A stretch of DNA of 64,000 bases, taken from assembly GCA_002319075.1 (NCBI GenBank), contig NVQB01000001.1, forward strand, positions 558,001-622,000, read 5' to 3'. How positions within the stretch are numbered: the stretch's first letter is position 1; every line of letters starts with the position of its first letter. A program made the translations under genes and the position numbers. The stretch is from Sphingobacteriaceae bacterium. GTDB lineage: Bacteria; Bacteroidota; Bacteroidia; B-17B0; Aurantibacillaceae. The notes beneath the pieces were generated by a model, which was not told the origin of the DNA, did not search any database, and saw only the letters and a program-made list of their open reading frames with translations. Below, in pieces: positions 46,311 to 51,788 of this stretch.

Positions 46311-47534
46311 CTATAATTCCAGTAATTGACGATAGAATTTCTCAGCAATAATTTCACGGTTAAAATTGGCATTCACGAACCGGCGACCATTTTCACCCAG
46401 TTGTTGTGCTAAGGTCTTGTCACTTTTAAGGTCTGAGACCGCTTTTACTAGTTCTTCCACATTCTCAGGTTCAAAATACATGCCGCACTTACCCTGAGTG
46501 ATAAACAGTTGCCTCGCTTCTCCGTCCACTCCAAGCAGAACCGGAATTTCCATAGAGAGATTTTCAAATAATTTAGAAGGGATTGCTCCAAGGAAAAGAT
46601 CTAATTTTCGAAGCGGCACAATAGCGGCGTCAATATCTTTAAGAACTGAAGGCATTTCTTTTTTAGTAACGGGATCCAGGAAAACCACGTTGGAAAGAGA
46701 AAGTTCTTCCTTAAGAGCCTGAAGCCGGGGTTTCTCAGGGCCACTTCCCATTAAAACAAATTTTATATCTGGCGTTGAACTAAAAGATTTCGCGGCATTC
46801 AGAATAACCTCTAATCCCTGCGCTATACCAATAATGCCTGCATATAAGAAGATAAAATCACTTTCAGGGAAACCATTTTTCGCTCTCCAATTGGCTTTAG
46901 AAATCGTTGCAGGATCATAATATTTAAGATCTACGCCGTTGGGTAACCAATAGGTTTTCACCGAAGGAAAACGCTTATTGATATTTGCGCAAATACCCTG
47001 TGTTTGTCCTGTAACAAGAACTGCCCTTTTGTACAGTCGTTCTTCGAGATTATACGCCAACTTTAAAAGGTATTTATTATTTACGACACCTAATTTTTCG
47101 GCGCTCTCTGGCCATAGATCACTCACGTTAAAAATCAGTTTTGCTTTTTTGCGTCGCGCCAGGTACAAAGCCGAGTATCCCAAGAACAAAGGTGGAGACT
47201 CGCAAAGCAGAAAATCGAAACTACCCAATTTTTTATTTCCAATTCTTGCACTTGACCAGACAAAAGAAAAATAGTTGCGTAAACGATTAACAATCGATTT
47301 ACTTTTCGATGCGTAGATTGATGAACGATGAACCTTTAGCCCTTCCATTTCCTCATAGAAGTAATTTTTACCCTTGTATGTTTCGTAGATTTGCATCTGC
47401 GGGTAATTCGGCATTGCAGTTAAAACCGTAACATCCACTCCCGATTTAAACAAACGCACAGCCAATTCAAACAACCTGTTTTGAGGCGCGCCCACTTCCG
47501 GAGGAAAATATTGCGTAAGAATTAAAAGTTTCAC
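46311..47534 (-). CDS. Glycosyltransferase family 4 (WbuB-like)
   Basis: About 407 residues from GTG at 47534 (VKLLILTQYFPPEVGAPQNRLFELA). GT-B fold: the N-terminal acceptor domain with GVDVTVLTAMPNYPQMQIY and the C-terminal donor domain with LYAGIIGIAQGLEVILNAA, FVLMGSGPEKPRL and PSKLFENLSMEIPVL. These are features of the GT4 nucleotide-sugar site. It adds a sugar to a surface glycan. A longer frame starts at TTG 47567, but a full consensus promoter lies between 47569 and 47538, so the GTG is preferred and the mRNA may be leaderless. Operon with the downstream O-antigen ligase-like gene. Confidence 0.9.
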   Translation of the reverse strand: MKLLILTQYFPPEVGAPQNRLFELAVRLFKSGVDVTVLTAMPNYPQMQIYETYKGKNYFYEEMEGLKVHRSSIYASKSKSIVNRLRNYFSFVWSSARIGNKKLGSFDFLLCESPPLFLGYSALYLARRKKAKLIFNVSDLWPESAEKLGVVNNKYLLKLAYNLEERLYKRAVLVTGQTQGICANINKRFPSVKTYWLPNGVDLKYYDPATISKANWRAKNGFPESDFIFLYAGIIGIAQGLEVILNAAKSFSSTPDIKFVLMGSGPEKPRLQALKEELSLSNVVFLDPVTKKEMPSVLKDIDAAIVPLRKLDLFLGAIPSKLFENLSMEIPVLLGVDGEARQLFITQGKCGMYFEPENVEELVKAVSDLKSDKTLAQQLGENGRRFVNANFNREIIAEKFYRQLLEL

Positions 47535-47572: not shown

Positions 47573-47619
47573 AAAATGACCGAAATCCATCAGTTTAATA
47601 TTGGATTATCGGTAATATA
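47573..47619. repeat. Left palindromic element flanking the AAA ATPase gene
   Basis: AAAATGACCGAAATCCATCAG... ; 35 of 47 positions equal the element at 48818-48864 in an ungapped comparison. It is a degenerate palindrome and overlaps the -33 region (47601-47603) of the ATPase promoter. Confidence 0.8.
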
Positions 47620-47631
47620 AATATATATTTG
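47601..47631 (+). promoter_or_regulatory. Promoter of the AAA ATPase gene
   Basis: TTG at 47601-47603, 20-bp spacer, TATATTTG at 47624-47631, 8 bp before the ATG. The left palindromic element covers the -33 region and part of the spacer. Confidence 0.65.
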
Positions 47632-47639
47632 AAGTAGTA

Positions 47640-48824
47640 ATGATCAAGCGTAATAAAGAAAAAGAAATTATCAGCTACATGAAACAATTTCCTGTAGTTG
47701 CCATCATTGGCCCACGACAAAGCGGTAAAACAACTCTTGCGAAACAACTTTATTACACAAAAAAAAGCACTAATTTATATTTCGATCTTGAAAGTCCCGC
47801 TGACCGGAGCAAATTTAATAACCCGGAATATTTTTTAAGTTCTTTAAAAGCGCAAACCATTATCATTGATGAAGTTCAGCGCATGCCTGAACTATATGCT
47901 CTGTTACGTTCGCTGGTAGATAAAAAAAAGATAAAAGGCAAATATCTTTTATTAGGCTCGGCATCACCGCATCTAATACAGGGCGTTTCAGAAACTCTTG
48001 CCGGGAGAATAGCTTATACAGAAATTGACCCTTTTAATTTAACGGAGATTTACAACAAACCAGCTGATATAAATAAACATTGGTTCCGGGGAGGCTTCCC
48101 TGATGCCTGGATGGCAAAAAACGAGGAACAATGCTTTCAATGGTTAAATAATTTTTTCAGAACTTTTATCGAACGGGATCTGAACACTCTGTTTGGAGTT
48201 ACTTTTTCTGGCGACCTCATGTTTAAGCTTTGGAGAATGTTGGGCCATTTTCATGGAAGTGTATGGAATGCTCAATCTTTTGCAAAGGGGTTGGATGTTA
48301 GTCCAACTACTATTAACCGGTACATCGAGTACCTGGAAGGCGCTTTTATGCTCAGAAAACTTCCAGCTTATGCTACAAATGCAAAAAAAAGATTGGTAAA
48401 AAGTCCAAAGGTTTATATAAGAGACAGCGGAGTACTTAATTACCTCACCAATATTCATTCTTCGAAGGAGATGTTTTTTAATCCTGCTATAGGCAATGCC
48501 TGGGAAGGATATGTATTGGAACAAATCATTCAGTTATTGCCTGCTACAATTGTTCCCTATTTTTACAGAACACATGATGGCAGCGAAATGGATCTTGTAT
48601 TGGTTAAAGGGATAAAGCCAATTGTATGCATTGAGATAAAAACAAATAATGAACCCAATCTTACCCGAGGGTTTTATGAATGCCTGGAAGATTTAAAATG
48701 TAAAACAGCAATTGTAATTACACCCTATCAACAAACGCCGTATGCCATTGCTGAAAACATAATGGTATACGGTCTTCATGACTTTCTAACTACAAAACTC
48801 CCTCAAATACTAAAACTAAAATGA
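47640..48824 (+). CDS. AAA_14/DUF4143 ATPase with C-terminal PD-(D/E)XK-like domain
   Basis: 394 residues. The N-terminal AAA domain has Walker A GPRQSGKTTLAKQLY (about residues 24-38) and Walker B IIIDEVQRMPELY, followed by a sensor-like LLLGSASPHLIQG. The middle part is a winged-helix-like segment (GLDVSPTTINRYIEYLEGAFMLRKLPAYATNAKKRLVKSPKVYIRDSGVLNYLT), the DUF4143 region. Near the C-terminus GSEMDLVLVKG ... VCIEIKTNN fits a PD-(D/E)XK nuclease-like core. Paralogues are numerous in Bacteroidota and archaea and their function is unknown. The gene stands alone between two related palindromes; its TGA stop is within the right one. Confidence 0.92.
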   Translation: MIKRNKEKEIISYMKQFPVVAIIGPRQSGKTTLAKQLYYTKKSTNLYFDLESPADRSKFNNPEYFLSSLKAQTIIIDEVQRMPELYALLRSLVDKKKIKGKYLLLGSASPHLIQGVSETLAGRIAYTEIDPFNLTEIYNKPADINKHWFRGGFPDAWMAKNEEQCFQWLNNFFRTFIERDLNTLFGVTFSGDLMFKLWRMLGHFHGSVWNAQSFAKGLDVSPTTINRYIEYLEGAFMLRKLPAYATNAKKRLVKSPKVYIRDSGVLNYLTNIHSSKEMFFNPAIGNAWEGYVLEQIIQLLPATIVPYFYRTHDGSEMDLVLVKGIKPIVCIEIKTNNEPNLTRGFYECLEDLKCKTAIVITPYQQTPYAIAENIMVYGLHDFLTTKLPQILKLK

Positions 48825-48864
48825 CCGAAAATCATCAGTTCAACTGACGATTTTCGGTCATTTT
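48818..48864. repeat. Right palindromic element, 47 bp, with stop codons of both convergent genes; likely bidirectional terminator
   Basis: AAAATGACCGAAAATCaTCAGTT-C-AACTGAcGATTTTCGGTCATTTT: 22 of 23 base pairs match. The TGA of the ATPase gene (48822-48824) and the TGA of the GH3 fusion gene (48860-48858, minus) are at symmetric positions. The long stem ending in a T run on either strand would act as a terminator in both directions. Confidence 0.9.
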
Positions 48865-51788
48865 GTAAGCGCATCGTAGAAAGCTTTATGTATTTTTCCA
48901 CGTATTCCCATCTTTGCAAGCTTGTTTTCGTCAGCGTTAGGATACACACGGTTACTTAAAAAAACCACCACTAAATTATTTTTCGGATCTGCCCAGGCAA
49001 AGGTACCTGTAAAACCACTGTGGCCAAAACTTTCAAGACTGCAATTAGAAATTACAGGGCTGTCTTTTTTCAAATCACTTTCCGGTTTCTCAAAACATAA
49101 ACCTCTTCTGTTACCAGGGCAAAATCTACAGCTTGTAAATTCTTTTACGACATTACTATCTAAAACACGCACGCCATTCAGCTGTCCCTTATTTAAATAT
49201 AATTGCATAACCTTTGCAACATCCATCGCGCTTCCGAACAAACCCGCATGTCCCGCAACGCCCCCCATCATAGCCGCTCCGGGATCATGTACATAGCCCT
49301 GTAGAATTTGTTTTCTGAATTTTTCATCGTTTTCGGTTGGTGCAACCTGTGTTTTCGAGAAATAGTTCAGCGGCCTATACGTTAAGCTTACTCCGATCTT
49401 AAAATAGATATCCGCCACGTATTCATTTAATTTTTTCTGGCTTTGTTGCTCAATAATTTGCTGCATAAAATAATAACCTACGTCACTGTATAAATATTTT
49501 CCAGGACTTTCGAGTTTAGAATCTACGATGCGTTTATAGATAGAATCATTAAATCCTTTGAAAATAAAGAGATTTTTAGCAACCTGAGTTGGATATTCTT
49601 CTGATTTTGTCTTAGCATAGATCCCGGGTTTATAGTCTCCTCTGCGGTCGATAGTTCTGATGTAAAATGGAATAGTGGCCTGCAGGCCAGCCTGGTGAGA
49701 TAATACATCCTCTATTAAGATATTTTCTTTGTCGGTACCCTTTAAATAAGGTAAATAAAATCCAAGTGTTTTTGAATAGTCAAAATTTCCTTCGCTGCGT
49801 AATTTCATAAGTGCGAGAGAACTAGACATAATTTTCGTGAGACTTGCCAAGTCGTAAATCGTTCCGTTATCTACTTTTTTAGAATCAGAATTGTAAGTGA
49901 ATTTTCCGAATGATTTTTGATAGATTACCTGGCCATCTTTTAAAGCTACGATTTCACAACCTGGATAAGCTTTTTCCTGTATTCCCATAAGAGCAATACT
50001 GTCGATCATTCCAAATTTCTTTGCCATGAAAATTTCTTTCACATAATTTTTTGTTTGTGCATCAAGAGGTTCCAGCGTGAGTCCGGACTCGCTTTTAAAT
50101 TGATTTGTACTCACAGGTAACTTCCCATTCACACGACTATTTCCCATAATAGCGTTTGCTGAAGCCCGTAAAAGAGAAGGGATGTATTCATAAGCCACAA
50201 TAATGGCTTTAAAATTTGAAACAGGTGGCATTTTATTTAAAAGGTAGGGATTGGTCATCATTACTAAAACGGTGGGACGCATTTTAGAAATGGAATCGAC
50301 TAATCTTAAAGTCTGCTTTCCTACGCCATAATTATTATCTGCTTTTAACGTAGCCTTGTTTATCTGCAGAATAACCAGATCTGTTTCTTTAATTTTTTCA
50401 AAAGCTTTTACAATCTCAGCAGGTTTGGCATCGTGTGTTAATCCAATATGCTCCACATAGGCGTAATTTTTTAAAGTACTTCCCAATGTATTTGTTTCTT
50501 CCACACCAAAAGAAACTTCCGCAATCCTTATACTATCTGTTCCTTTAAGCGGAAGAAAATTATTTTCATTTTTTAGGAGTGTGATAGAGGCCTCCGCTAA
50601 TTTTTCATTCAGATCTTCGCTTTGTTTTGTGTTTAATTCTTTAGTAAGATTTCGCGTCACAATTTCCTGCTTACTATTTAAGCCGCACCAGTATTTTGCT
50701 TTGAGAATTTTTCTACAACGTTCGTCAATTTCTTCCTGCGTAATTTTACCTTCTTTTATTGCTTTCGTAATTTCATCCAAAGCTATTCCCACATTTCCAC
50801 TAAACAATAAAACATCATTGCCTGCCAAAAGTGCCTTCACATCAACTATTCCCGGCGCATAAAATTTAGCTACTCCTTTCATGTTGAGGGCGTCGGTAAA
50901 AATCAAGCCCTTGTAGTTCATTTTTGTTTTAAGAAGATCGTTAACCACATTTGGTGACAAAGTAGAGGCCAGATTCTTAGTAGTATCGAGACTCGGAATA
51001 TTTAAGTGAGCAACCATAACGCTTGATAGTCCGCGATCAAACAAGTAATGAAAAGGATATAACTCTAAAGAATCTAATCTCTCACGTGTATGTGTAATGG
51101 AAGGCAGTGTGTGATGCGAATCGCTATCCGTATCACCATGTCCCGGAAAATGTTTCCCGTTGGCCATCACCTGTTCATCCTGCAGGCCTTGCATATACAT
51201 GAAAGCTTTTTGCGCGACTTTGTATTTGTTCTCCCCAAAGCTGCGCATACCTATTACAGGATTTAAAGGGTTGTTATTTACATCTGCTACTGGCGCAAAA
51301 TTCACGTGAATTCCTAAACGTTTGCATTCCTTCGCGATTTGTTTTCCCATCTGGTAAATCAGTGAATCGTTCTGAATGGCACCAAGCGTCATTTGTTTAG
51401 GATACCGCGGTGTTGAATCCAGTCGCATAGCCAGGCCCCATTCTCCATCAATACCGTAGAGTAAAGGTGTTTTTGCGATGCTTTGAAAATAATTTGCTAA
51501 TTGTCCCTGTCGCACCGGTCCACCCTGCATCCAAATCAATCCACCGATGTTGTAATTTATAATGAGTTCCTTTATTTCCTTTACATGTTTTAGATCTTTG
51601 TTACTGTATGCTGCAACCATGAATAACTGACCTAAACGTTCCTTAGGCGAAAGGGAGTTAAAAACGGAATCCACCCATCTGTTTTGAATGGAAATAAAAT
51701 CAGGGTCTTTCTTTTTTTGAGAAGGAGGGATAAATGCTACCATGACAAAGGTCACCAGCACACAAAGCGTTCTAAAAATGCGATTCAT
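48858..51788 (-). CDS. Exported GH3 beta-N-acetylhexosaminidase fused to a beta-lactamase-family serine hydrolase
   Basis: 976 residues. Signal peptide residues 1-22. A glycoside hydrolase family 3 (NagZ-like) domain occupies about residues 30-590, with MANGKHFPGHGDTDSDSHHTLPSI (catalytic Asp-His loop of NagZ) and LIFTDALNMKGVAKFY carrying the nucleophile Asp. A class C beta-lactamase-like domain follows from about 610, with SxxK in LASLTKIMSS (about 649), a Tyr motif in YSDVGYYFM and HSGFTGT in place of KTG. Both active sites look complete. A periplasmic role in peptidoglycan turnover or muropeptide trimming fits. This fusion is a recurrent Bacteroidota architecture. It is convergent with the ATPase gene through the shared palindrome. 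Confidence 0.93.
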   Translation of the reverse strand: MNRIFRTLCVLVTFVMVAFIPPSQKKKDPDFISIQNRWVDSVFNSLSPKERLGQLFMVAAYSNKDLKHVKEIKELIINYNIGGLIWMQGGPVRQGQLANYFQSIAKTPLLYGIDGEWGLAMRLDSTPRYPKQMTLGAIQNDSLIYQMGKQIAKECKRLGIHVNFAPVADVNNNPLNPVIGMRSFGENKYKVAQKAFMYMQGLQDEQVMANGKHFPGHGDTDSDSHHTLPSITHTRERLDSLELYPFHYLFDRGLSSVMVAHLNIPSLDTTKNLASTLSPNVVNDLLKTKMNYKGLIFTDALNMKGVAKFYAPGIVDVKALLAGNDVLLFSGNVGIALDEITKAIKEGKITQEEIDERCRKILKAKYWCGLNSKQEIVTRNLTKELNTKQSEDLNEKLAEASITLLKNENNFLPLKGTDSIRIAEVSFGVEETNTLGSTLKNYAYVEHIGLTHDAKPAEIVKAFEKIKETDLVILQINKATLKADNNYGVGKQTLRLVDSISKMRPTVLVMMTNPYLLNKMPPVSNFKAIIVAYEYIPSLLRASANAIMGNSRVNGKLPVSTNQFKSESGLTLEPLDAQTKNYVKEIFMAKKFGMIDSIALMGIQEKAYPGCEIVALKDGQVIYQKSFGKFTYNSDSKKVDNGTIYDLASLTKIMSSSLALMKLRSEGNFDYSKTLGFYLPYLKGTDKENILIEDVLSHQAGLQATIPFYIRTIDRRGDYKPGIYAKTKSEEYPTQVAKNLFIFKGFNDSIYKRIVDSKLESPGKYLYSDVGYYFMQQIIEQQSQKKLNEYVADIYFKIGVSLTYRPLNYFSKTQVAPTENDEKFRKQILQGYVHDPGAAMMGGVAGHAGLFGSAMDVAKVMQLYLNKGQLNGVRVLDSNVVKEFTSCRFCPGNRRGLCFEKPESDLKKDSPVISNCSLESFGHSGFTGTFAWADPKNNLVVVFLSNRVYPNADENKLAKMGIRGKIHKAFYDALTK

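Follow-up and report, generated by a model that had tools for sequence, protein, structure and literature searches.

An AAA_14/DUF4143 ATPase-nuclease gene between two palindromes that its product may recognise: a candidate single-gene cassette

The window analysed here is a stretch of 64,000 nt from a Sphingobacteriaceae bacterium (contig NVQB01000001.1, positions 558,001 to 622,000, forward strand). It contains an ATPase gene placed between two related palindromes and flanked by a glycosyltransferase and a GH3 gene. In window coordinates, the features are:

46311–47532, minus strand: flanking glycosyltransferase gene, its GTG start set by comparison with relatives, in which it adjoins the GH3 gene
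47573–47619, no strand: left palindrome, a degenerate copy covering the promoter's -33 region upstream of the ATPase; a candidate for the operator and for the left end of the cassette
47624–47631, plus strand: probable -7 box, TATATTTG, 4 bp after the end of the left palindrome
47640–48824, plus strand: AAA_14 (PF13173) and DUF4143 (PF13635) ATPase gene, 394 aa, PADLOC PDC-S01, by Pfam and PADLOC profiles
48300–48317, plus strand: ATPase codons 221–226, probable wHTH recognition helix, covarying with half-site positions 16–18
48573–48578, plus strand: ATPase codons 312–313 (His, Asp), in the hairpin of the nuclease; half-site position 7 is predicted from residue 313
48585–48641, plus strand: nuclease motif E316-x-D318 ... 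E332-x-K334, conserved in 50 aligned proteins
48818–48864, no strand: right palindrome, 47 bp; candidate right cassette end and terminator-like hairpin
48858–51788, minus strand: flanking GH3/beta-lactamase-fold gene, its stop codon within the right palindrome

A preliminary description of this DNA had reported two such elements outside the ATPase gene, and re-measurement gave the same values: the right one pairs at 22 of 23 positions, and the left one is identical to it at 35 of 47 positions without gaps. Taken alone, the left copy pairs with itself at 12 of 23 positions only. As also described before, the right copy supplies the stop codons for both sides, which are the ATPase TGA (48822–48824) and, for the opposite strand, the stop codon of GH3, the convergent gene (48858–48860). 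The left copy ends 4 bp before TATATTTG, probably a -7 box of the Bacteroidota type. Therefore the left copy lies over the -33 region, in agreement with the earlier assignment, and the ATPase transcript, judged from the position of this box, is probably nearly leaderless. Within the window, the exact core AAAATGACCGAAAATC was confined to the right copy, where both arms contain it. The palindrome with its spacer, searched as an exact pattern, occurs at a single place in the 5.65-Mb genome, and a blast search with the whole unit against this genome returned the self-match only. None of the five neighbouring proteins scanned with Pfam is a defence gene.

The ATPase scored 98.2 bits with PF13173 (cut-off 27) and 122.4 bits with PF13635 (cut-off 28.1), and it matched the PADLOC profile PDC-S01 with an E value of 1.7e-82. 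The Pfam scan showed the AAA and DUF4143 families, no HUH domain and no transposase. Judged by these profiles, the protein is a member of the AAA_14/DUF4143 family, the PDC-S01 of PADLOC and an abundant defence candidate, for which we take COG1373 to be another name. The AlphaFold2 model of the whole protein has a pLDDT of 91.3, that of the C-terminal domain alone one of 90.7. The structures nearest to the whole model were RuvB and the archaeal AAA+ ATPases 2fna and 2qen (TM-scores 0.31–0.48). For the C-terminal domain, Foldseek placed the McrC nuclease 6ut7 first (E 1.6e-3), followed by DdmD and SfsA, with VRR_NUC lower among unrelated folds; with no E value under 0.001, this similarity of fold is weak. 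E316 and D318 are present in all 50 aligned proteins, E332 and K334 in 49 of them, the remaining row being gapped at this point. The motif E-x-D ... E-x-K and, weakly, the fold both point to a PD-(D/E)XK-like domain; since the motif is near-invariant in the 50 proteins, catalysis has probably been kept. The segment with helices at 211–218 and 222–234 is presumably a wHTH, judged from these helices.

We compared the best 80 of 311 homologous loci together with four from the genus, the own locus included; after removal of the near-duplicates L075 and L105, 82 loci were left, and 197 other ORFs in the same DNA served as controls. A palindrome (score of at least 13) was found upstream at 52/82 family loci vs 1/197 controls, downstream at 40/82 vs 7/197, and on both sides at 25/82 vs 0/197. 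A repeat matching between the two sides (score of at least 12) was seen at 43/82 family loci and at 1/197 controls. The palindromes beside these ATPase genes are neither a product of chance nor a local peculiarity, and their presence at other DUF4143 loci bears out a point on which the preliminary description had made its reading depend. Where both copies are present (41 loci after exclusion of two doubtful ones, positions being taken within the stretches searched), the left palindrome is in 36 centred 37–46 bp ahead of the start codon, and the right one in 40 centred 10–31 bp past the stop. Of the 82 tree rows, 41 are without a matching right copy, with at least 10 changes on the tree, and nine Pedobacter loci, in which the gene is at one common site, have kept the promoter copy alone. 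The two copies show a weak bias to direct repeats (22 vs 10 inverted, 7 equal, p 0.08), to which we give no weight.

The palindrome sequences vary by subfamily (CCGAAAATC, CCTTGAAAATC, CCTAGTAAATC, CCATGAAAAT, CCGTGAAAAT). The left and right copies match with a score of 26.6 within a locus vs 10.3 across loci (0/20000 permutations); as the 43 loci of this comparison were selected because their copies match, the value within a locus is biased upwards. Among nine loci sharing at least one flank, the score between the own left and right copies (33.0) was also higher than left-left (24.1) or right-right (27.4). Homologues of the ATPase were present at E 0.001 in 20 of 40 genus genomes. The palindrome type of the window occurs in three of the 40 (own, G015 and G018) at four places, all edging the three closest homologues: between the GH3 and glycosyltransferase genes in the own genome (G000) and in G015, and beside dnaE and aconitase genes, named by eye, in G018. 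A second type occurs in two of the 40 genomes, at one place each, edging a related ATPase or its broken copy. As an exact pattern, the window type has no site away from the ATPase in the 40 genomes (the reversed control also gave 0), and a REP-like dispersal was rejected on this ground.

Several further observations were made at these loci. The right neighbour is convergent at 58/77 family loci, and among 28 loci that have both copies and such a neighbour, its stop is at most 5 bp from the outer end of the palindrome in 14, several of these sharing one site. Longer direct repeats of 128–471 bp flank the ATPase gene outside the palindromes at L147, L142, L128, L101 and L129. Several of the distant genus members L021–L025 and L033 (25–28% identical) carry palindromes or repeats of another kind, around TTGTCA/TGACAA or TGACTAAATTA, next to the gene, sometimes in more than one copy. 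At L157 and L158, on Rhizobium and Agrobacterium plasmids, the start codon is overlapped by the upstream palindrome, with a gene for an integrase/tyrosine recombinase immediately upstream. Such ATPase genes were counted in 373/72,556 plasmid records and in 22 of 114 candidate viral stretches; with 7/50,697 phage records, carriage by phages is weakly supported.

Does the protein follow the sequence of its palindromes? In a scan of protein columns against half-site bases at 78 loci, the pair of residue 313 and half-site position 7 came out on top with z 12.95, the next pair reaching 6.9. Within the outer box, which is of the CCnnG type, position 7 is the third base; residue 313 belongs to the hairpin of the nuclease, next to the catalytic Glu-x-Asp. 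The combinations D-C (34), A-T (13), T-T (11), N-A (7), H-G (5) and Q-A (4) cover 74 of the 78 loci and give the code D>C, A/T>T, N/Q>A and H>G. The same pairings are also usual in chemical terms, A being met by Asn or Gln, G by His, C by Asp and T by small side chains.

The code was fixed on these 78 loci and then applied to 134 new ones. Of 395 phylum genomes drawn, 76 matched at 1e-60; 29 new loci and 60 fetched ones came from this source, to which 22 viral contigs, 5 plasmid loci and 19 distant genus loci were added, with one of the 135 giving no gene. A single rule set the palindrome and its register, so that position 7 entered solely through the pairing count. No upstream palindrome pairing at 14 of 21 positions was present at 57 loci and the register failed at 10, leaving 67 testable loci; in 56 of them the code covers the residue present. 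Of these 56, 54 agreed with the code in both arms, L308 in one arm and L302 in neither, near-copies included; counted by clusters of 70% identity, the agreement was 32/34. Among residues outside the code, S went with T (3/4), V with T (1) and K with G (1/2), and G was mixed. When its pairing was learned from the training loci alone, residue 313 was right at 33/39 cluster representatives (33 of the 34 covered), compared with 17/39 for the next best column and 9/39 for the nearest training protein.

Shared descent was controlled for by independent pairs on a tree built without columns 300–326. N/Q changed together with A in 10 pairs, in the opposite sense in none and without a change in one (p 0.002); for H/K with G the counts were 6, 0 and 1 (p 0.03). 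Pairs were too few for a separate test of D with C (3, 0) and of the T class (about 3, 0, 2). Downstream palindromes fitted the code at 40/41 loci, the exception being D with T. A joint scan of 137 rows raised the pair 313–position 7 to z 28.4 (next 12.3), and its top seven pairs fall in two segments, 312–313 (positions 10 and 7) and the helix 221–226 (positions 16–18). Residue 313 alone transfers to new loci: the pairs of 312 with position 10 and of the wHTH (221–226) did not do so as single-column predictors, and the wHTH residues, which covary with the bases yet fail in this transfer, were rejected as predictors. Where residue 313 is glycine, a palindrome was mostly not detected: this residue was seen in 16/57 loci without a palindrome and in 4/67 testable loci (L275, L276, L278 and L297 are examples). 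For paralogues avoiding the same base, the figures were 5/33 pairs vs 24% between genomes.

The architecture, the co-occurrence and this residue-base code, together with the empty sites treated below, are computed results. Because residue 313 predicts a base of the palindrome, the ATPase very probably reads the palindromes that flank its own gene, and the covariation suggests that the wHTH probably reads them as well. The preliminary description had left two alternatives, cassette ends or an operator recognised by the protein. The second is strongly supported by a code that transfers to new loci, and the left palindrome is probably an operator: it has the position over the own promoter expected for autorepression, with the base specificity deduced from covariation.

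The first alternative concerns gain and loss of the unit. The GH3 protein is present in 35 of 40 genus genomes, and 30 GH3 loci were read. In two of them, the own one and that of G015, the unit is located between the GH3 and glycosyltransferase genes. In 21 these genes are contiguous without the unit, with the glycosyltransferase motif 43–165 bp after the GH3 stop; six of the remaining seven have no glycosyltransferase in the stretch, and one was left unresolved by the motif, the glycosyltransferase being next to GH3 by a separate placement. The unit is therefore present or absent at orthologous sites as is typical of a transposon (2 filled vs 21 contiguous of 30), and the segment-free sites which the preliminary description had named as a check make up most of the loci read. 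In G001, the closest relative, the junction holds no ATPase and one decayed palindrome. This scar aligns with the right palindrome over 45 columns with 32 identities (score 17; base shuffles 7.7 +/- 1.5, 0/2000 as high), and for the left copy 228/2000 shuffles score as well. It could also be a pre-existing palindrome. No scar was seen by eye at the junction of G039, nor such a palindrome at the other empty junctions inspected. The GH3 tree groups the own genome with G001 (support 99), G015 with G039 (90) and all four together (91), a pattern that fits one gain with losses and also two gains.

Between differently sited relatives with both copies, homology extends from about -60 to -80 to about +38 to +57, roughly from palindrome to palindrome. 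The clearest pairs are L076/L080/L092 vs L082/L084/L085, with proteins 82–86% identical and the right end at +38 or +39, the right flank of L082 comprising 265 bp only. In pairs with the promoter copy alone, homology ends at or inside the stop. A base-level reading of empty sites was rejected for the L084 and L092 groups, whose flanks belong to separate contigs; their flank homology stops at a stop codon or close by and is uninformative beyond that. A second, broken copy of the ATPase in the own genome (G000:C1:4970865-4972086; L005, L159) has one clear palindrome on its 3' side, 6 bp after an alpha-2-macroglobulin-like gene with pbpC beyond, both named by eye. Of 30 pbpC loci 23 were examined, and 8, the own included, have an alpha-2-macroglobulin-like gene within 1.5 kb; in four of these the two genes are directly adjacent without the unit, and in three 637–993 bp lie between them. 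Copies of the CCTTGAAA type, the G000 pseudogene and one in G001, were considered as two insertion sites and rejected: the gene left of the G001 copy is about 2.6 kb from the G000 copy, and both probably represent one old insertion, which we do not count as movement. No convincing target-site duplication was detected at 36 loci: among 400 offsets tried for each length none stood out, the z score reaching 3.6 at most. In the own genome, which holds this copy, one broken copy and one distant relative, there is no near-identical second copy.

With the empty sites, the homology stopping near the outer palindrome edges and the single-palindrome scar of G001, the reading as cassette ends gains support too, and the palindrome pair probably bounds a mobile cassette. 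We consider it fairly likely that the ATPase gene and its two palindromes are one self-recognising cassette which moves as a unit. In this model, a protein with an AAA+ ATPase, a probable wHTH and a PD-(D/E)XK domain would bind the palindromes by recognising particular bases, those of the outer box through the hairpin next to the nuclease site (residue 313, probably also 312) and inner ones through the wHTH recognition helix (221–226). The left palindrome on the promoter would act as an autoregulatory operator, and the right copy as the second end of the unit, providing the stop codons for both sides. Palindrome, gene and palindrome would move together, and a loss may leave one palindrome behind. 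Movement or loss via the palindromes is suggested because there are cognate sites at both ends, homology stops there and an empty site keeps one of them. Self-mobilisation is weakened because half of the tree rows (41/82) are without a matching right copy, no target duplication is convincing and near-identical copies are missing from the own genome. Also against the model are the nine Pedobacter loci with the promoter copy alone, the 57 and 10 of 134 new loci at which an upstream palindrome or the register failed, and the three exceptions to the code. That the protein binds its palindromes in vivo, controls its own gene, nicks or cuts at these sites and mobilises the unit itself is what we infer. 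Of the two earlier alternatives both are supported; cutting and self-movement belong to the inferred part. Only tentatively do we go further and propose that the DUF4143 ATPase-nucleases might be a new class of minimal single-gene mobile element, with a one-residue-one-base code, two cognate palindromes and a unit that is excised or copied. If true, one of the commonest prokaryotic 'defence systems' would be at least partly a selfish element.

A stationary, autoregulated single-gene defence of the PDC-S01 type is an alternative that we regard as rather unlikely, though it deserves serious attention. The protein would repress its own promoter via the left palindrome, the second copy would be an auxiliary operator (forming a DNA loop) or a terminator, and spread would occur by ordinary horizontal transfer. 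The upstream palindrome is indeed seen more often, and it is this copy that the nine Pedobacter loci at one site retain; the left centre is at the promoter, 37–46 bp before the start, in 36/41 loci, the protein matches PDC-S01 (E 1.7e-82), and PDC-S01 is, according to PMC12988326, very common and mostly unvalidated. By itself, however, such a defence leaves unexplained why homology ends near both palindromes, the insertion into a tight junction and the lone palindrome at an empty site, and reading of an operator by a nuclease hairpin beside an invariant active site would be odd for a pure repressor. That the palindromes are target sites, attB-like or terminators, which became duplicated on insertion of the gene, is improbable and already largely refuted: the empty site of G001 does keep one palindrome-like sequence, but the palindrome follows the protein and not the site (compare the neighbours in G000 and G015 with those in G018), its base tracks residue 313, and the other empty junctions inspected have no palindrome by eye. 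Ordinary bidirectional terminators alike by chance would suit a right copy that often lies between convergent stops (58/77), but can hardly be upheld with the left copy at a promoter and matching repeats at 43/82 loci vs 1/197 controls, and they are refuted by the residue-base code.

For PDC-S01, these results provide a predicted site of binding next to many of the genes and a residue predicted to determine specificity; we know of no earlier lead to the DNA on which the family acts. They bring its binding, cutting, regulation and mobility within reach of direct tests, and the code is a candidate specificity code of a nuclease domain. PMC12988326 ranks PDC-S01 as the fourth most common defence across prokaryotes, counting 9986 archaeal and 29494 bacterial instances, and describes most candidates of this kind as still awaiting validation; in PMC13356809 it is the most frequent individual locus in rumen genomes. 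In PMC4406477 a Thermus AAA_14/DUF4143 gene has a fold change of 6.6 with a plasmid present, and PMC10782964 places COG1373 among horizontally transferred genes. Counts of 'defence' genes may include self-propagating cassettes. No account of palindromes, code or cassette was found in the accessible texts of the freely available literature on DUF4143, COG1373/PF13173/PF13635 and PDC-S01, to which the search extended.

IS200/IS605 elements and the REP-associated tyrosine (RAYT) transposases consist of a single gene with end palindromes recognised by its product, an HUH tyrosine nuclease acting on hairpins. The likeness to REP-associated transposases put forward in the preliminary description holds for the layout, but not for the enzyme: the window protein has AAA+, wHTH and PD-(D/E)XK parts instead of HUH, a domain absent from its Pfam scan. 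Compared by description only, arCOG03166 shares the domain order of the window protein, an AAA+ ATPase followed by HTH and RecB nuclease, and is entered as a likely defence or plasmid gene; it differs in being archaeal, and flanking palindromes are unmentioned in the accessible part of its source (PMC4158269). With McrBC, the McrC nuclease and the McrB AAA+ protein, the window protein shares the combination of an ATPase and a PD-(D/E)XK nuclease, McrC being the nearest fold. In contrast to McrBC, the window protein unites both in one polypeptide, which is predicted to read the palindromes of its own gene.
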